The position numbers and the translations under genes are program-made. 32,099 nucleotides of DNA from Mongoliibacter sp. (GTDB lineage Bacteria > Bacteroidota > Bacteroidia > Cytophagales > Cyclobacteriaceae), in assembly GCF_007692705.1 (NCBI RefSeq), contig NZ_REBN01000177.1, forward strand, positions 1-32,099. Direction: 5' to 3'. Positions 4,898 through 11,940 of this stretch are shown one piece after another (position 1 is the first letter of the stretch; each line of letters opens with the position of its first letter). The notes beneath the pieces were generated by a model. The model had not been told where the DNA came from. It searched no databases and saw only the letters and a list, made by a program, of their open reading frames with translations.

Positions 4898-5605
4898 TTA
4901 GGCGTTCTCCTCCTTTACTCTCCACAACCTCCACCAAGGAGTGCCGGGAGAATCATGATGTTCGAAATGATATCCGAAAAAGTAACAGGATACAAATGCC
5001 CAAATATGGTTTTTGGACTGACTTTTAGAGTGGTGTTTATTTTCAGAGTCTCCCATATGAGGCAAGTAAGTTCCAAAATAAAAGAGTTGTAAGGTGGAAA
5101 GTATAGCTGGCAGCATCCAAAACACAATAAGATTTTCTGTAGGAAGAAAAAGCTTAAGGATATTAAATGTAATAGCCATTAATAAAAATTGCCAAATAGT
5201 AACGTACTGTCTTACAAAACTCAAATACCAAATAAAAAAATTATCCGATTGGTGATAATCAGGATCCTTATCCGTTGCTACAAACCTGTGATGTTCATGA
5301 TGCTTTGGATAAAGCTTCCAATAGAAATTATAGGAAAAAAGCAATGCAGCAATAAATCCTATTGCATGATTGGCTTTTTTGTTGGAAGAAACTATTCCAT
5401 GCATCGCATCGTGAGCCGTGATGAAAAGCCCGGTATAAAGATGCGTCTGAAAAAAGATTGCTAAATAGGTGAGGGGGTTCGTCCAATTTATTTCCCAATG
5501 TAAGAGAAAAATTAAAGAAATGGCCCATATAAAAATTACGGATAATCCAATAAGAATACCTTTGGGATCTATTTTTCTATCTATATGTGTTGAAGTTGAC
5601 TGCAC
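4898..5605 (-). CDS. crtW: CrtW-type beta-carotene ketolase (membrane di-iron oxygenase)
   Basis: The 235-residue membrane protein belongs to the fatty-acid-desaturase superfamily and fits CrtW, which inserts the 4-keto group on a beta-ionone ring. The histidine clusters are HDAMH (65-69), HHEHH (102-106) and HFEHH (213-217). The family-typical stretches FITAHDAMHG, FGTYLPH and GYHFEHH with PWWRL are also present. Several hydrophobic segments surround these motifs. The start is GTG at 5605; no closer ATG precedes the first His box. It is the last gene of the carotenoid operon, 27 nt after ispH. CrtW acts on beta-rings, so an intact copy beside a broken cyclase is notable. A generic desaturase is the main alternative, but the motifs favour a ketolase. 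Confidence 0.85.
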   Translation of the reverse strand: MQSTSTHIDRKIDPKGILIGLSVIFIWAISLIFLLHWEINWTNPLTYLAIFFQTHLYTGLFITAHDAMHGIVSSNKKANHAIGFIAALLFSYNFYWKLYPKHHEHHRFVATDKDPDYHQSDNFFIWYLSFVRQYVTIWQFLLMAITFNILKLFLPTENLIVFWMLPAILSTLQLFYFGTYLPHMGDSENKHHSKSQSKNHIWAFVSCYFFGYHFEHHDSPGTPWWRLWRVKEENA

Positions 5606-5632: not shown

Positions 5633-6478
5633 CTAAAAGGTTTGAATCCTCACTTTTACTTGTTCCATCAACCACATTGGCGTGGAAGTAGCCCCACATA
5701 TACCAACTGTTTCACCATCTTTGAACCAAGAATCTTCAACTTGGTCTGGATTTGACACGAAGTAGGTATTTACATTTTTTTCTTTACATACGTTGAATAA
5801 AACCTTTCCGTTGGATGATTTTGTCCCGCTTACAAAAACTATGTGATCAAATTTTTCTGCAAAATCTCTCAATTCTTTATCCCTGTTGGAAACCTGTCTG
5901 CAAATGGTGTCATTGGTATTGACTGTAATGCCATTCTCTTTGAGGATTTGATTGATTTCGTAAAATTTATCGGTGCTTTTGGTAGTCTGACTGTAAAGTG
6001 TAATATTTTTGGGAAGTTTGGCAAGATCTAACTCTTTGATATCCTGAAAAACCACTGCTTTATTATTTGTCTGACCCAAAAGTCCTATCACTTCCGCATG
6101 TCCATGCTTTCCATAAATATAAATTGACTCTTCTTTATCGAATGAGTTTTTGATTCTGTATTGTAACTTGAGTACGACAGGACAGCTTGCATCTATCAAT
6201 GTCAGGTTATTGTTGATTGCTAGTTCGTATGTAGAAGGTGGTTCTCCATGAGCCCTAATAAGAACTTTCTCGTTGAATAGGTCCTTCAAATCATTATAAT
6301 CTATGATTTTTAATCCTTTTTTTGTGAGCCTGTTCACTTCTTCATCATTGTGAACAATATCTCCCAGACAATACAGATAACCTTGTTCATCAAGGATTTC
6401 TTCTGCCATTTCTATGGCATACACCACTCCAAAGCAAAAGCCTGAATGCTGGTCGATATGGACTTGGAGATTCTTCAT
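5633..6478 (-). CDS. ispH: 4-hydroxy-3-methylbut-2-enyl diphosphate reductase
   Basis: IspH (LytB) carries out the last step of the MEP pathway, reducing HMBPP to IPP and DMAPP with a [4Fe-4S] cluster. The three cluster cysteines are Cys15 (GFCFGV), Cys99 (DASCP) and Cys193 (TICRQVSNRD). The substrate-binding landmarks are also present: RAHGEPP (75-81), a GKHGHAE segment (123-129), SQTTKST (164-170) and SGTKSSNG (217-224). The 281-residue length is normal. It sits 3 nt after the lycopene-cyclase relic and 27 nt before crtW, so isoprenoid precursor supply is co-transcribed with pigment genes. From memory, an Algoriphagus carotenoid cluster with ispH among crt genes has been reported. Confidence 0.96.
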   Translation of the reverse strand: MKNLQVHIDQHSGFCFGVVYAIEMAEEILDEQGYLYCLGDIVHNDEEVNRLTKKGLKIIDYNDLKDLFNEKVLIRAHGEPPSTYELAINNNLTLIDASCPVVLKLQYRIKNSFDKEESIYIYGKHGHAEVIGLLGQTNNKAVVFQDIKELDLAKLPKNITLYSQTTKSTDKFYEINQILKENGITVNTNDTICRQVSNRDKELRDFAEKFDHIVFVSGTKSSNGKVLFNVCKEKNVNTYFVSNPDQVEDSWFKDGETVGICGATSTPMWLMEQVKVRIQTF

Positions 6479-6481
6479 AGG

Positions 6482-6682
6482 CTATAAACTTTTGACTTTA
6501 GGAATTGTTTGTAAAGCATTGATTCTTTCATAAATGGATACATTCATCAATAAAAGGGTAAATGCAAAGCTTTGGAGAAGCAGACACCAATTTTCAGCAT
6601 ATTGAATCCTGCTTATATAGGACTTGACCAAAGCAAAAGAACCGGTCAATATGTTTAGAGTGAGGTATAGAAACTTTTCCAT
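6482..6682 (-). pseudogene. crtYcd: relic of fused lycopene beta-cyclase crtYcd with internal deletion
   Basis: This is a 66-codon frame lodged between crtB and ispH with 3 nt on each side. Its first ~35 residues (MEKFLYLTLNILTGSF, then RIQYAENW) resemble the N-terminal helix of the CrtYc half of fused lycopene cyclases. Residues ~38-53 (SFAFTLLLMNVSIYER) resemble the last helix of the CrtYd half. Full-length fused proteins are roughly 230 residues, so about 160-170 residues appear to be missing in frame, including both Pro-x-Glu-Glu/Asp catalytic regions. The remnant cannot be a working cyclase. Family similarity is judged from remembered consensus, not a search. The alternative is an unrelated small membrane protein. 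Confidence 0.6.
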
Positions 6683-6685
6683 TCG

Positions 6686-7528
6686 TTAGCTTAAACCTAA
6701 TTTACTGCCAAAATAAGTCCCCAACAAAAGCGAGATTTTTCTAGCATTGGGTATTCTAATTCTTTCATGTGTTATGACTTCAGGAGCAAGACTTTTTATT
6801 TTTTTGAAAAGTTTCAAATAATAAAGGTAGGCTACTTTCACCCCTAATTTTGCACCGTCAGGCAAACCTTTAATTCCTTCAAGAGCATCATCAAAATCGT
6901 TTTGTATATCTTTTTCTATTAGGGTTTTTGCATCCAGGTTGAATTCATTGTAATCCACTCCAGGAAAATAAACCCTTCCCCTTTCTTCGTAATCACTCTT
7001 GATATCTCTTAGAAAATTCACTTTCTGAAAGGCTGCACCAAGTTTACATGCCGGATCTTTCAGTCTTTCGTACATAGCCTGATCTCCTTCACAAAACACC
7101 TTTAAGCACATCAGACCAACCACTTCAGCTGAGCCATAAATATATTCATGGTACCTGGAATCATTATAAGTTTTGAAATCCAGGTCCATTTCCATACTTG
7201 TCAAAAAAGCTTCAATAAGACTTTTATCAATATTGTATTGGTTTACCACCAGTTGAAAAGCATGAAGTACCGGATTCAGACTTATTTTATCTTCTATGGC
7301 TTTATAAGTGTCTGCTTTAAACAAACTTAAAAGTGATTTTTTGTCTTTGTCATGAAAAGTGTCCACTATTTCATCTGCATACCTTACAAAACCATAGATG
7401 GCATAAATAGGCAAATGGAATTTTGTATCAAGGGTTTTTATCCCCAGTGTAAAGCTAGTGCTATACCTTTGGGTGATAAGCTTGCTGCACTCAAAGGTGG
7501 TTTGGTTGAAGAGCTGAATTGCATCCAT
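6686..7528 (-). CDS. crtB: phytoene synthase
   Basis: CrtB condenses two geranylgeranyl diphosphates head to head into phytoene. Both Asp-rich magnesium-diphosphate motifs are present: DEIVD in YGFVRYADEIVDT, and NFLRDIKSDYEERGRVYFPG near the middle. The RYSTSF and GSAEVVGLM segments are also typical of the trans-prenyltransferase squalene/phytoene synthase family. I chose the ATG at 7528 (280 codons). An in-frame TTG five codons upstream (7543) is possible but less likely. It lies 21 nt after crtI and 3 nt before the cyclase relic, in the same operon. Confidence 0.95.
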   Translation of the reverse strand: MDAIQLFNQTTFECSKLITQRYSTSFTLGIKTLDTKFHLPIYAIYGFVRYADEIVDTFHDKDKKSLLSLFKADTYKAIEDKISLNPVLHAFQLVVNQYNIDKSLIEAFLTSMEMDLDFKTYNDSRYHEYIYGSAEVVGLMCLKVFCEGDQAMYERLKDPACKLGAAFQKVNFLRDIKSDYEERGRVYFPGVDYNEFNLDAKTLIEKDIQNDFDDALEGIKGLPDGAKLGVKVAYLYYLKLFKKIKSLAPEVITHERIRIPNARKISLLLGTYFGSKLGLS

Positions 7529-7549
7529 ACTGATAATATACAAATTTAT

Positions 7550-9031
7550 CTACAGATTGTTTTCTTTGATCACTTCTTTTGCCACCACATGACCTGAAAT
7601 CAATGACGGAGGTACTCCCGGCCCAGGAACAGTAAATTGACCCGTGTAGTAGAGATTCTTAACTTTTTTATTCTTCAAGGAAGGCTTCAATATAGCTGTT
7701 TGAAGCAAAGTATTGGCTAAGCCATATGCGTTACCTTTGAAAGCATGATAATCAGACTTGAAATCTGAATGAGCATATGACCTTTTATAAATAATATGGT
7801 TTCTTATATCTTGACCAGTTAGCTTTTCTAACCTATCCATGATCATGTGGAAATATTTTTCCCTCAACTCCTCTGAATCTTCAAGGTCGGGAGCTAGAGG
7901 AATCAATAAGAATAGGTTTTCTTTTCCCTCCGGTGCTACAGTTGGATCTGTGATAGAAGGAACAGATGCGTAGAAAAGTGGCTTTTCAGGCCATCTGGGA
8001 TTAGTGTAGATCGCATCAGCATGTGGCCCAAGAGGTTCATCAAAAAATAAATTATGATGTCTAAGATTTTTCAGCCTTTTATCCACTCCAATATAAAAGA
8101 GTAGGCTTGATGGAGCCATCACCCTTTTATCCCAATATGCTTCATTGTAATTTCTGTATTCCGGCGCTAACATCATGCTATCTACATGATGGTAATCTGC
8201 TCCAGCTACAATAATATCTGCATCGAAACTTTCACCGGAATTCAAGAGTACTGATTCAGCCTTATCATTTTTAACAATAATTTCAGCAACCTCAGCATCA
8301 TAACGAATATTTACGCCTTTTTCTTCGGCTAGACTCACCATTCCTTCTATGATCTTATGCATTCCGCCGGCAGGATACCAAGTACCTAAGACTATATCTG
8401 CATAATTCATAAGGCTATACAAGGCCGGTATGTTTTGGGCTGTTTCTCCCAAGAACAAAACCGGAAATTCCATCAACCTTATAATTTTATCCTCTTTGAA
8501 AAATTTCCTGACGTGTTTTGACATGGATTGAAAAATATCCATCCTGATCATATCTACCAGTAGCTTAGGGCTGGCAAACTCCATCAGGGACCGGCTGGGT
8601 CTATACACCAGATCTTGGATTCCAACTTTATATTTGTAGGCTGCCTGCTTGAGAAATTCATCGAGCTTAGGTCCAACCCCGGGTTCTATTGATTCAAGTA
8701 ATTTTCTGAATTCCGCAAGGTTGGCTGGAATATCCATAAAATCCTTTTCCCCAAATACTACCGTGTAAGAAGGGTCTAGGCGAATCAAGTCATAATAATC
8801 AGCTGTCTTTTTACCAAAATGAGAAAAATAAGTATCAAACACATCTGGCATCCAATACCAACTTGGGCCCATATCAAAAGTAAAACCCTCGGCTTCGAAC
8901 TTTCTTGCTCTTCCGCCGGGGGTTGAATTTTTCTCTAAAAGGGTTACTTGATATCCAAGATGCGCAAGATGTGTGGCTGCTGATAATCCTGCAAAGCCGG
9001 AACCAATCACCAACACTTTCTTTTGAACCAT
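7550..9031 (-). CDS. crtI: phytoene desaturase (CrtI family)
   Basis: CrtI is an FAD-dependent membrane-associated desaturase that converts phytoene to lycopene. Residues 5-40 carry the dinucleotide-binding fold (VLVIGSGFAGLSAATHLA) followed by PGGRARKFEAEGFTFDMGPSWYWMP-like family sequence. The C-terminal family signature YYTGQFTVPGPGVPPSLISG lies near residues 463-482. The 493-residue length is normal. The ATG at 9031 is only 5 nt after the ECF sigma gene, indicating co-transcription. A CrtD-type desaturase (3',4'-desaturation) is the closest alternative, but adjacency to crtB favours phytoene desaturase. Confidence 0.93.
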   Translation of the reverse strand: MVQKKVLVIGSGFAGLSAATHLAHLGYQVTLLEKNSTPGGRARKFEAEGFTFDMGPSWYWMPDVFDTYFSHFGKKTADYYDLIRLDPSYTVVFGEKDFMDIPANLAEFRKLLESIEPGVGPKLDEFLKQAAYKYKVGIQDLVYRPSRSLMEFASPKLLVDMIRMDIFQSMSKHVRKFFKEDKIIRLMEFPVLFLGETAQNIPALYSLMNYADIVLGTWYPAGGMHKIIEGMVSLAEEKGVNIRYDAEVAEIIVKNDKAESVLLNSGESFDADIIVAGADYHHVDSMMLAPEYRNYNEAYWDKRVMAPSSLLFYIGVDKRLKNLRHHNLFFDEPLGPHADAIYTNPRWPEKPLFYASVPSITDPTVAPEGKENLFLLIPLAPDLEDSEELREKYFHMIMDRLEKLTGQDIRNHIIYKRSYAHSDFKSDYHAFKGNAYGLANTLLQTAILKPSLKNKKVKNLYYTGQFTVPGPGVPPSLISGHVVAKEVIKENNL

Positions 9032-9036
9032 ATAAA

Positions 9037-9549
9037 TTAATTTTTGTGTCTGTACACGTGAAGGTCTTCTTTCAAAATTTTCCTTGCAATATGTATCCTA
9101 TTCTTAACAGTTCCAATGGGAATTTCCAGTTTGTCTGCTATCTCATGGTATTTGAATCCCTTGTAATGCATCATAAATGGAACTTTATAAACATCATCCA
9201 ATTTTTCAATAGCTAACTGGATATCATCCATGGTAAAGTCACCATAAGCTCCATTTTCTATAAGAATAGATCCTGAATTGATATAATGTAGATTATCTGT
9301 GGTATCTACGAATGTGCCTCTTCTTACCATTCTTTGATAGTTGGTAATGAAGGTGTTTTTCATAATCGTATAAAGCCATGCTTTCAAGTTAGTACCTTCT
9401 GTAAATTTGTCTTTGTTTGTGAAGGCTTTAACCATTGTGTCTTGTAAAAGGTCATTAGCATCATCCATGTCCCTTGTTAATTTCAGTGCGAAGGGCTTCA
9501 AAGAACTGGATAGTTTGTGAAGTGAGTAACTAAATTCTAGAGTTGTCAT
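9037..9549 (-). CDS. ECF-type RNA polymerase sigma factor, first gene of the crtI operon
   Basis: The 170-residue protein has sigma region 2 (about residues 15-78, with DANDLLQDTMVKAF and LKAWLYTIMKNTFI) and region 4 (about 107-160). The helix-turn-helix of region 4 reads YHEIADKLEIPIGTVKNRI (134-152). A 30-residue linker separates them, with no extra domain. It starts at the ATG 9549, about 16-20 nt after the predicted transcription start, and is followed by crtI after 5 nt. No anti-sigma gene is adjacent, so how its activity is controlled is unclear. Position as leader gene suggests it responds with, or amplifies, the carotenoid programme; its target promoters are unknown. Confidence 0.93.
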   Translation of the reverse strand: MTTLEFSYSLHKLSSSLKPFALKLTRDMDDANDLLQDTMVKAFTNKDKFTEGTNLKAWLYTIMKNTFITNYQRMVRRGTFVDTTDNLHYINSGSILIENGAYGDFTMDDIQLAIEKLDDVYKVPFMMHYKGFKYHEIADKLEIPIGTVKNRIHIARKILKEDLHVYRHKN

Positions 9550-9704: not shown

Positions 9705-9737
9705 ATAAAAAAAAGTGGGATTAAATAATCCCACTTT
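9705..9737 (-). terminator. Rho-independent terminator after the CarH-like regulator gene
   Basis: A 12-bp stem (9712-9723 with 9726-9737, containing AAAGTGGGATTA) is followed on the minus strand by a run of T. It lies 27 bp after the regulator's stop codon and separates the cruF-crtZ-regulator block from the sigma-crtI operon, which therefore needs its own promoter. Confidence 0.85.
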
Positions 9738-9763: not shown

Positions 9764-10660
9764 CTATTTCTCTTGAAACTCGATTTCAATCTCCTCCAAG
9801 TATTCTTTAATTTGTCTGATGTAGTGCAAAGCTTTTACGTTTTTTGGCATCCGAAGATCTTGCCCAACAATCTGATAACCTGAAATAATGATCTGCGAAT
9901 CTTTAAAGAGGCTTGACAAATTGTCTATATAACATTGAACTTCTTGGGAATTTGGTGAAGTAGTGATCACCGTCATAAGATATTCCGGACTATGAAGCTT
10001 ATAGACTAGCTTTAGATCTTCTTTGGGGGTGTTTTGTCCTAAATACACAACCTTGTGACCTTTTGACTTGATCAAAAAAGTAGCAAAAAGCAATGAAATT
10101 TCATGAAGTTCGCCCTCAGGAAGATATAATAAAAACTTCTTTCCTCCTCCTTTATATACCTGTCCATCAATTGCGACTATTAATTTCTGACGGACAAGAT
10201 TACTTATGAAATGCTCTTGGGCTGGATTTATAGCTCCTGTTTGCCAGAGAACTCCAATTTTGGATAAAAACGGATAGATGATGTTCAACATGGTTTGTTC
10301 AAAACCTATCTTGAGGATATTTGTAGATAGCACTTTTTCAAAGCGATCTTCATCCATTTCGATCATACAGATCGTCAGTGCATGGATTTGATCATCATAA
10401 GTAAGATTTTTCTCTGTAAGCCTTACTACTTCCTCTTTCATTTCCAGAAACGTCATTCCTGCAATTTTGCTTATTTTGAAGCCATTGTCGTTCAAAAGAG
10501 CAACATTGAGAATTAATTTAAGGTCATCATCATCATAAAAACGGATATTGGTATCTGTCCGCTTCGGAGAAAGCAAATTGTATCTTTGTTCCCAAATTCT
10601 TAGTGTATGGGCTTTGATACCGGAAAGTTGCTCAAGATCTTTAATAGAATAAGTGCTCAC
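9764..10660 (-). CDS. CarH/LitR-like MerR regulator with B12-binding domain (putative light sensor)
   Basis: The 298-residue protein has an N-terminal MerR helix-turn-helix (YSIKDLEQLSGIKAHTLRIW, 4-23, then the wing RFYDDDDL). A helical segment and a Rossmann-like cobalamin-binding domain (about 175-290) follow. The cap motif of adenosylcobalamin photoreceptors, Wx9EH, is exact: Trp139, nine residues, Glu149-His150. The lower-axial-ligand motif is ELHEIS with His186; the usual Gly of DxHxxG is Ser189. In known CarH proteins, dark-state tetramers bind B12 and repress carotenoid genes, and light releases the DNA. The start is GTG, overlapping the crtZ stop by 4 nt (coupled translation). Light sensing is inferred from the motif and the context. 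Confidence 0.85.
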   Translation of the reverse strand: MSTYSIKDLEQLSGIKAHTLRIWEQRYNLLSPKRTDTNIRFYDDDDLKLILNVALLNDNGFKISKIAGMTFLEMKEEVVRLTEKNLTYDDQIHALTICMIEMDEDRFEKVLSTNILKIGFEQTMLNIIYPFLSKIGVLWQTGAINPAQEHFISNLVRQKLIVAIDGQVYKGGGKKFLLYLPEGELHEISLLFATFLIKSKGHKVVYLGQNTPKEDLKLVYKLHSPEYLMTVITTSPNSQEVQCYIDNLSSLFKDSQIIISGYQIVGQDLRMPKNVKALHYIRQIKEYLEEIEIEFQEK

Positions 10661-11103
10661 TTTGATTTATTTTTAAAGTACTTTCTAGGAACGACGAAGA
10701 GTCCAAATGAAACTGCATCATCCTTTTTATTGGTAGCATGATGTGCCTGATGTGCTTTGAATATGCTCATCAAGAACCTGTTTCTTGGTCTTTCAAACAT
10801 TTTTACTCTTCTGTGAACCAAAACATCATGAATCACGAAATAGAGAATACCGTAAAGACTAATCCCTACACCCATCCAAAACCTGTAATCTAGTTCAGCC
10901 ACTCCTAGAAAGATCAGAAGAACTGCGACACTTCCGAAGAATAGCGAAAACAAATCATTAAGCTCTAGAAATCCCTTACTAGGCTGATGATGCGTTTTAT
11001 GTATATTCCAAAGAGGTCCATGCATGATATATTTATGAATGAACCAGCCTGAAAATTCCATTGCAACAAATCCAATAATTATGAAGAGAATGGCATACAT
11101 CAT
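10657..11103 (-). CDS. crtZ: beta-carotene 3-hydroxylase
   Basis: CrtZ is a small membrane di-iron oxygenase that hydroxylates C3 of beta-ionone rings. All histidine boxes are visible in 148 residues: H23xxxxH28 (HKYIMH), H35xxHH39 (HKTHH), H92xxxxH97 (HDVLVH) and H118xxHH122 (HQAHH). The C-terminal stretch DDAVSFGLFVVPRKYF is typical of the family. Hydrophobic segments lie at about 2-20, 52-70 and 78-95. It overlaps the downstream regulator gene by 4 nt and lies 48 nt after the cruF-like gene, forming a three-gene block. It needs a beta-ring substrate, which conflicts with the broken cyclase in the next operon unless another cyclase exists. Confidence 0.93.
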   Translation of the reverse strand: MMYAILFIIIGFVAMEFSGWFIHKYIMHGPLWNIHKTHHQPSKGFLELNDLFSLFFGSVAVLLIFLGVAELDYRFWMGVGISLYGILYFVIHDVLVHRRVKMFERPRNRFLMSIFKAHQAHHATNKKDDAVSFGLFVVPRKYFKNKSK

Positions 11104-11151: not shown

Positions 11152-11829
11152 CTACAGGATAAAGTTTAATACTGCAAAGAATGTTATTAAATTGAACAAT
11201 AAATACCAGGAAATTGCATTTTTTTTATTAAAGTTTAATTTTCTGTAAAAGAGTTGAATTATAAAAGCCACAGCCAGCCAGCCTAAAAAGTTGGATAAAG
11301 GAATGATATCAGATTCCCATTTCCAAAAATCCAAGGTTACTGCTACTGGTTCTATGATGACATCTATGAGCATCATCATCAAGGAAGCTAAGCCGGCAGC
11401 AAGCCAATCATTACTGATTTTTTCATGAAATAAGTTCCCGGTACAATAAACCAAAATAAGCCAATTAATCCCGATCATTAGTGGAACTTCAAACAACTGC
11501 CAACCCAATACATCACCATACCAATAATCTCCGAATGGAAAACCTGTGTGTACTCCCATAACCTCAGACCCATACCCCAATGAAAATCCAACAGCTATGA
11601 ATATCAAAAATGAATAGTTCCAGTCTTTATGAAAATAAAGAAGTATTCCGAAGTTTAATAACAAATGGAAAGGTGTAAGCATCTGAAAATATGGCCGTAA
11701 ACTTGGTATAGACATACCTATCAAACCTACCAAATAGAAAATGCTGATGATTATCTGGAAAATTTTGATGTAATTCTGAGACGAATTCTTCTGGACTTCT
11801 TTAGTATTTTTGGTCAGTTGCTCTTGCAT
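11152..11829 (-). CDS. CruF-like carotenoid biosynthesis protein (DUF422), putative carotenoid 1,2-hydratase
   Basis: This polytopic membrane protein has about seven hydrophobic segments. Its central family-typical sequence has GVHTGFPFGDYWYGDVLGWQ followed by VPLMIGINWLILVYC and a later DVIIEPVAVTLDFWKW. These match the DUF422/CruF family, whose members hydrate the psi-end of gamma-carotene or lycopene (C-1' hydroxyl of myxol- or flexixanthin-type carotenoids). I chose the ATG at 11829 (225 codons); an upstream in-frame TTG (11916) would add 29 poorly fitting residues. It heads the block with crtZ and the regulator. Hydratase activity is inferred from the family. It is not the CrtYcd-type lycopene cyclase. 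Confidence 0.8.
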   Translation of the reverse strand: MQEQLTKNTKEVQKNSSQNYIKIFQIIISIFYLVGLIGMSIPSLRPYFQMLTPFHLLLNFGILLYFHKDWNYSFLIFIAVGFSLGYGSEVMGVHTGFPFGDYWYGDVLGWQLFEVPLMIGINWLILVYCTGNLFHEKISNDWLAAGLASLMMMLIDVIIEPVAVTLDFWKWESDIIPLSNFLGWLAVAFIIQLFYRKLNFNKKNAISWYLLFNLITFFAVLNFIL

Positions 11830-11851
11830 TATTGGTAAATAAAAGATAATC

Positions 11852-11863
11852 AAATCGCGATTT
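11852..11863. promoter_or_regulatory. 12-bp palindrome upstream of the cruF-like gene
   Basis: AAATCGCGATTT is a perfect palindrome 23 bp before the cruF-like ATG, in the 111-bp region shared with the divergent DUF4286-like gene. Further upstream on the minus strand is TAATTTTG (11921-11914), a -7-like element without a matching -33. Operator function is a guess from position. Confidence 0.35.
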
Positions 11864-11940
11864 AACAGACTTTTTAACTGTATCGAACTATATTTGTTCT
11901 TGTTTGAAGCTGACAAAATTAACTATAAAATTGATTTCCA

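Follow-up and report, generated by a model that had tools for sequence, protein, structure and literature searches.

Tao et al. 2006 reportedly described CrtYcd as the fused lycopene cyclase of Algoriphagus. PMC10784355 places a crtYcd gene in flexixanthin-making Algoriphagus and nowhere mentions ispH; the order crtB, cyclase, ispH is printed for Echinicola in PMC8683446. Cyclase displacement has been proposed for other lineages: according to Klassen 2010 (PMC2889829), CruA was probably displaced by CrtL via horizontal transfer, and CrtY was transferred from proteorhodopsin producers. CrtYcd and blh in Rhodothermaceae are discussed in PMC5877348.

We analyzed a window of 32,099 nucleotides (the whole stretch of DNA under study, from Mongoliibacter sp.) that holds a carotenoid cluster transcribed in the order cruF-like, crtZ-like, MerR/CarH-like regulator, ECF sigma factor, crtI, crtB, a 66-codon frame, ispH and crtW-like. 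G000 denotes the window genome, G021 Mongoliibacter ruber, other G numbers the remaining members of a set of 245 Cyclobacteriaceae genomes, and C a contig. The features of the cluster are as follows.

11152..11916, minus strand: cruF-like carotenoid 1,2-hydratase (PF04240 101 bits; TIGR03460 94 bits, below the cut-off of 154.7)
10657..11103, minus strand: crtZ-like hydroxylase of the fatty acid hydroxylase superfamily (PF04116 47.1 bits; name taken from the cluster)
9764..10660, minus strand: MerR-type regulator, CarH-like (NF052513 97.5 bits, cut-off 400)
9037..9549, minus strand: ECF sigma factor (Pfam/NCBIfam profile searches)
7550..9031, minus strand: crtI-family phytoene desaturase, intact (NF058655 CrtID 761.8 bits, cut-off 640)
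6686..7543, minus strand: crtB, phytoene synthase, intact (PF00494 153 bits; 88% to M. ruber)
6482..6682, minus strand: crtYcd relic, 66 codons plus stop, with an in-frame internal deletion of 170 codons relative to the intact 236-aa M. ruber orthologue
5633..6478, minus strand: ispH, HMBPP reductase, intact, one of two genome copies (Pfam/NCBIfam profile searches)
4898..5605, minus strand: crtW-like beta-carotene ketolase, intact frame (NF045690 236.6 bits, below the cut-off of 350)

The cluster resembles that of Algoriphagus, as far as the accessible part of PMC10784355 describes it, in having crtI, crtB, crtYcd and crtW together, and the M. ruber relative of the Algoriphagus protein aligns with the 66-codon frame at both ends; unlike it, the window copy is short of 170 internal codons and has neither conserved motif. 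The gene order round the slot is also that of Echinicola, where the crtY of PMC8683446 occupies the position of crtYcd here. In Echinicola, however, the cyclase gene is present, and the accessible part of that paper mentions neither a relic nor a displacement.

A preliminary description of this DNA had placed the 66-codon frame between crtB and ispH with 3 nt on either side, and the coordinates agree: the frame starts with ATG 3 nt past the crtB stop and ends 3 nt before the ispH ATG. In a search of Pfam and NCBIfam the 66 residues matched no family, so that the two lycopene cyclase domains expected above curated cut-off (TIGR03462/PF18916) are absent, and the frame holds no Pro-x-Glu-Glu/Asp motif. 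It does combine homology to the end segments of CrtYcd with the crtB-ispH slot. When public genomes were scanned with these residues, a single relative came back, M. ruber DSM 27929. This genome, labeled as the same genus, has an intact 236-aa frame in the identical slot, matching TIGR03462 at 108.5 bits (cut-off 39.4) and PF18916 at 149 bits (cut-off 27), each in two stretches, with motifs PLEE at 75 and PIED at 203. A fused protein of the kind that the preliminary description gave for Cytophagales, about 230 residues with two motifs, is present in M. ruber, whose standing as nearest kin rests on the genus label (support for the pair in a CrtB+IspH tree is 24).

Searched against the window genome at E values up to 10, M. 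ruber CrtYcd gave two matches, both within the 66-codon frame: residues 1-42 (57%, E 8.4e-7) and residues 209-236 (75%, E 1.8e-5). The lost middle was not found elsewhere in the window assembly with the M. ruber protein as query. Relative to M. ruber, an in-frame segment of 510 bp, or 170 codons, has gone, taking both Pro-x-Glu-Glu/Asp motifs with it; in M. ruber numbering its bounds lie at about codon 37-42 and about codon 206-212. The proposed loss of about 160-170 codons with retained start, stop and 3-nt spacings was thus accurate, as was the assignment of a CrtYc-like N-terminal and a CrtYd-like C-terminal end; the relic reading had been made to depend on at least one half aligning with CrtYcd, and both do. 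On this comparison the frame is almost certainly a relic of crtYcd consisting of its two ends only, and it is very unlikely to cyclize lycopene with both motifs gone. Annotators should not take the 66-aa frame for a gene. Its parts are listed below.

6575..6682, minus strand: N-terminal remnant, codons 1-36, drifted (P17A, F22Y and E23I, each in a column without variation among 35 intact orthologues)
6557..6574, minus strand: zone of the deletion junction, codons 37-42, which can be aligned with either flank and where the two matches partly overlap
6485..6556, minus strand: C-terminal remnant, codons 43-66, diverging less from M. ruber than the N-terminal part
6483..6510, minus strand: candidate ispH leader element AAACAATT..AAGTTTATA within the last crtYcd codons, its consensus persisting in genomes without an otherwise intact crtYcd

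The two remnants have diverged to different degrees, with base differences from M. ruber at 39 of 108 positions in the N-terminal part and 8 of 72 in the C-terminal part. We compared drift over 60 columns with the 35 intact orthologues whose loci had been fetched, using a consensus built from the intact genes without the relic, which slightly favors the intact genes. Five columns are invariant, and the relic departs at the three named above. With 90% conservation as the threshold it departs at 4 of 12 columns (intact genes, maximum 2, mean 0.26), with 80% at 6 of 20 (maximum 4), and with 70% at 9 of 32, a value equaled by the worst intact genes (9). Counted as residue differences against ten other intact genes, the relic exceeds M. 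ruber by 5 to 9 in the N-terminal part in all ten comparisons, which are not independent, and by 1 or 2 in the C-terminal part, also in 10 of 10 comparisons that share the one relic.

The preliminary description had left the cause between natural loss, a laboratory mutation and an assembly collapse. An assembly collapse or a fresh laboratory deletion, in a strain that has or recently had an intact crtYcd, would fit a genome that is a 285-contig draft and a deletion whose frame and spacings are clean. Against it, no exact direct repeat of at least 12 nt occurs in the intact M. ruber gene, and the longest word common to its breakpoint zones is 5 nt (a figure for the M. ruber sequence and not for the strain's own predeletion gene), leaving little for an assembler to collapse on. 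The remnant has moreover drifted at invariant residues, and the middle of the gene was not found in the assembly; both speak against collapse or recent deletion, which we regard as very improbable. Drift, the lack of a repeat and the absent middle together favor an older, natural loss, and varied remnants in other genomes point the same way; of the three causes the natural one thus gained ground and the other two receded. The loss was probably natural and not very recent.

Could the frame instead encode a functional small membrane protein? It is open, has an ATG and is tightly spaced to both neighbors, and its pN/pS of 0.33 against M. ruber falls short of 1, with 0.35-0.43 against the genes of four other genera (silent sites near saturation). 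Intact M. ruber crtYcd gives 0.19-0.25 against those four genes over the same columns, and crtB, ispH, crtW, crtZ and crtI give 0.05-0.15 between the window and M. ruber (silent sites near saturation in both sets). A low pN/pS can, however, date from before the deletion, invariant residues have changed, and loci without intact crtYcd keep mutually different pieces. Among the matches listed at E <=1e-3 when the 66 residues were searched against the 245 family genomes, all were the window's own frame or frames of 236-278 codons; we therefore rejected a conserved small protein. Short frames also gave some weaker matches, one of them a 66-codon frame at G070:C4 (35%, E 0.023), which sits on a different contig from that genome's crtYcd. 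A functional small protein is accordingly the least credible of the alternatives that we considered.

The earlier proposal to look for another lycopene cyclase in the genome proved fruitful. TIGR03462 gave no match over its cut-off anywhere in the window genome. PF05834, the CrtY family, gave two near-full-length matches over its cut-off of 23.4, of 201.7 and 127.4 bits, on two other contigs.

Contig C76, L044 4667-5845: non-A CrtY, 392 aa (PF05834 201.7 bits over positions 1-374 of 380, with no second Pfam family)
Contig C187, L045 5500-6651: type A CrtY, 383 aa (PF05834 127.4 bits, positions 1-372 of 380, no other Pfam family)

With TIGR01790 the two proteins score 92.0 (C76) and 47.6 (C187), both under the curated cut-off of 209.5. 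In the window genome two further flavoprotein frames, with short or weak matches, also passed the PF05834 cut-off, and 10 of 14 control genomes had at least one match above it. Taken by itself the Pfam score is therefore not specific, and the CrtY names rest on full-length fit and context. We call type A a CrtY within a rhodopsin-crtY-blh cassette and non-A a CrtY elsewhere. The C187 gene lies between a microbial rhodopsin (PF01036 148.7 bits) and blh (PF15461 126.2 bits; TIGR03753 143 bits over 95.25), which makes it type A. M. ruber carries type A, and no C76-like CrtY was found in it at E 1e-12. The type A gene sits in the cassette beside gyrB and ppk in all 14 loci read, out of 39 carriers; these loci are those of the window genome, M. 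ruber and 12 others, and 7 of them belong to the 20 genomes that have type A alone. A prediction of the pathway from the carotenoid cluster by itself would wrongly label the strain cyclase-free.

The 245 Cyclobacteriaceae genomes were searched for type A CrtY, non-A CrtY, CrtYcd and CrtB, with type A and non-A assigned by bit scores; in a tree of 44 CrtY proteins a single branch separates the type A rows (14) from the non-A rows (30). CrtYcd was counted as intact for any match outside G000 and G101, a definition that takes in two-piece matches in G029 and G198 and matches with one flagged stop in G008, G015, G193, G230 and G031. We dismissed a broken crtYcd in G031, where the flagged TAA merely shortens the last few codons. 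Fragmented CrtY genes were counted too, in G038 (both types), G133 and G154.

Non-A CrtY and CrtYcd are nearly mutually exclusive in the family. CrtYcd is present in 8 of 91 carriers of non-A CrtY versus 126 of 154 other genomes (both, 8; non-A only, 83; CrtYcd only, 126; neither, 28; Fisher p 4e-31, a test that ignores kinship). The exceptions retained among the eight include G103 and G139, 674-codon frames with weak CrtY scores, as well as G031 and G231, which carry all three cyclases. Non-A CrtY is variable within 12 genera, and among these CrtYcd varies in the opposite sense in 8, in the same sense in 0 and is tied in 4 (sign test p 0.0078); for this genus test and a second table, 20 of the 28 genomes lacking crtB had been removed and the other 8 kept. 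On a 59-genome CrtB+IspH tree, 4-5 of 6 independent pairs show the opposite trend and none the same, which at p 0.06-0.125 is not significant alone; the tree's genomes were picked by fetched loci and comprise 26 carriers of non-A CrtY, every one of the 39 type A carriers and 2 of the 8 exceptions. The association is a correlation and says nothing of function, and a swap of cyclases seems to have been repeated within the Cyclobacteriaceae.

Type A behaves differently in the counts. All 20 genomes with type A and no non-A CrtY keep CrtYcd, and among the 19 with both types, 2 have intact CrtYcd (G031 and G231), 3 a relic (the window genome, G039 and G101) and 14 none. Our overall reading, to which we give a probability of about 0.83, is that crtYcd in the window is a nonfunctional relic, that its loss is tolerated through the non-A CrtY and that the cassette CrtY is insufficient. 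By comparison with M. ruber, the 510-bp in-frame deletion removed both catalytic-type motifs of crtYcd. To judge from the distribution, the loss would have been tolerated because the C76 CrtY supplies ring closure for the xanthophyll pathway; the 20 of 20 genomes suggest that the rhodopsin-linked CrtY alone does not suffice. Following the deletion, the N-terminal remnant drifted while the last codons stayed more alike. In this genome we consider it likely that a displacement of crtYcd by non-A CrtY has been caught part-way.

The reverse order is conceivable: crtYcd could have been lost first under cover of the rhodopsin-linked CrtY, the non-A CrtY arriving later or by chance. The window genome has both CrtY types, and one genome cannot give a sequence of events. 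Yet CrtYcd persists wherever type A stands alone, and in G231 and G031 all three cyclases coexist without loss, which makes this order unlikely. Somewhat less likely still is that the xanthophyll pathway has lost ring formation and that acyclic carotenoids are made, the CrtY genes serving retinal only. The crtI-family and cruF-like genes are intact and could yield acyclic products, and in none of the 20 genomes of the set that have type A CrtY alone is crtYcd lost. The products of crtW and crtZ act on beta rings, however, and the crtW-like and crtZ-like genes are still constrained (pN/pS 0.15 and 0.05, respectively); the genome also has a non-A CrtY, the kind that accompanies absence of crtYcd elsewhere.

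Within the preferred reading of a displacement by non-A CrtY, that the rhodopsin-linked CrtY cannot stand in for CrtYcd is a tentative proposal from these gene distributions, which we hold at somewhat below even odds. We speculate with similar reserve that the cassette CrtY may be walled off for retinal through regulation, complex formation or one-sided specificity, and that only a second, noncassette CrtY would free crtYcd to decay. If true, the repeated decay of crtYcd would amount to a natural genetic test of whether two pools of ringed carotenoids are kept apart, and the question of whether retinal and xanthophyll synthesis are fed by separate cyclases becomes testable.

Other genomes hold their own traces of the gene. 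Counted from the final crtB codon in the alignment, slots between crtB and ispH without CrtYcd measure 55-273 bp in 20 loci that were read; the slot of G101 measures 419 bp. In G039 an N-terminal piece survives (68% over 25 residues, E 2.7e-5), and the last crtYcd residues persist there in another frame, as read by eye. The copy of G101 (L128 2866-3286) is 5'-deleted and has internal stops, whereas that of its genus mate G031 (L127) is intact. About a dozen C-terminal residues are seen in G043 (25 residues at E 0.15 with a stop); this stretch overlaps the ispH leader element and is therefore weak as a remnant.

The window genome's non-A CrtY clusters with those of G073, G053, G125, G113, G031 and G101 (SH-aLRT 99.8 in a quick tree). 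We rejected a common origin with the copies of G039 and G043, as forcing these together gave an AU p of 1e-4, an optimistic value for a group named after the tree was seen. The CrtB+IspH cluster tree, by contrast, puts the window in one group with M. ruber, G039 and G043 (support 97), and placing it with G073, G053, G125 and G113 was rejected at p 0.001 (groups again named post hoc). Given this disagreement between the CrtY and cluster trees, the loss of crtYcd in the window was probably a separate event. Around the gene itself, p255 and S41 flank crtY in the window genome, G113, G031 and G101; M. ruber and G039 have p255 and S41 without crtY, and the sequence beyond differs, so that an empty site proving CrtY insertion was not obtained from these two genomes. 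The window genome may have gained its non-A CrtY by transfer, or M. ruber may have lost an old copy.

Judged by analogy, the crtYcd relic would be a further case of the same kind of event as the cyclase displacements of Klassen 2010 (PMC2889829), in which a resident cyclase is replaced by a different one. As far as the accessible part of that paper goes, the present case differs in that remnants of the displaced gene can still be seen, in several states, and in that the replacement does not appear to be the rhodopsin-linked cyclase. We found no literature on crtYcd relics or on exclusion between CrtYcd and CrtY in this family in a search that was thin on subscription journals and saw its sources in part. 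Displacement is usually visible only once finished; intact, coexisting, partly deleted and erased states of crtYcd in one conserved slot open its order and rate to study.

The last codons of the relic, the part more alike to M. ruber, perhaps stayed so as a leader of ispH. In intact crtYcd the bases of the candidate element are the gene's last codons. Across 21 genomes without intact crtYcd, the consensus AAAACAATT, followed about a dozen bases on by AAAGTT-ATA, precedes the ispH start, and the information content, 0.22 bits per base at -60, reaches 1.06 by the start, figures that kinship inflates. The pattern occurs once in the window, and it varies singly, G038 being without the first half. 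The AAACAATT..AAGTTTATA element may be a translation or transcription leader of ispH, or a promoter. All six genomes searched, the window's included, carry a second ispH at 58-60% identity (G000:C89:7700-8563 in the window genome, 60% identical to the cluster copy), so that the cluster copy may serve carotenoid supply and any account of the leader based on essentiality is weakened. We accordingly rejected the idea that the reading frame was kept because the downstream ispH is the sole essential copy; since the relic of G039 is out of frame, the frame retained in the window may be one-in-three luck.

Several minor observations concern the rest of the cluster and the cassette. Rfam gave no match over gathering score between 4800 and 12000, and a promoter scan returned 20 sites against 26.9 expected and was therefore disregarded. 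A perfect 11-bp inverted repeat with a T run (9712-9737), terminator-like, lies between the ECF sigma and MerR genes; six such inverted-repeat sites were found in the stretch against 4.5 expected. The CarH-like MerR regulator has a B12-binding helical domain at 41.9 bits (cut-off 23) and a B12-binding domain that is subthreshold at 11.9 (cut-off 32.1), and for this latter reason may not bind B12. In the cassette (L045 4691-7510, G000:C187) the rhodopsin is 94% identical to that of M. ruber, versus 72% for crtY and 74% for blh, which indicates that the cyclase and the dioxygenase evolve much faster than the pump.
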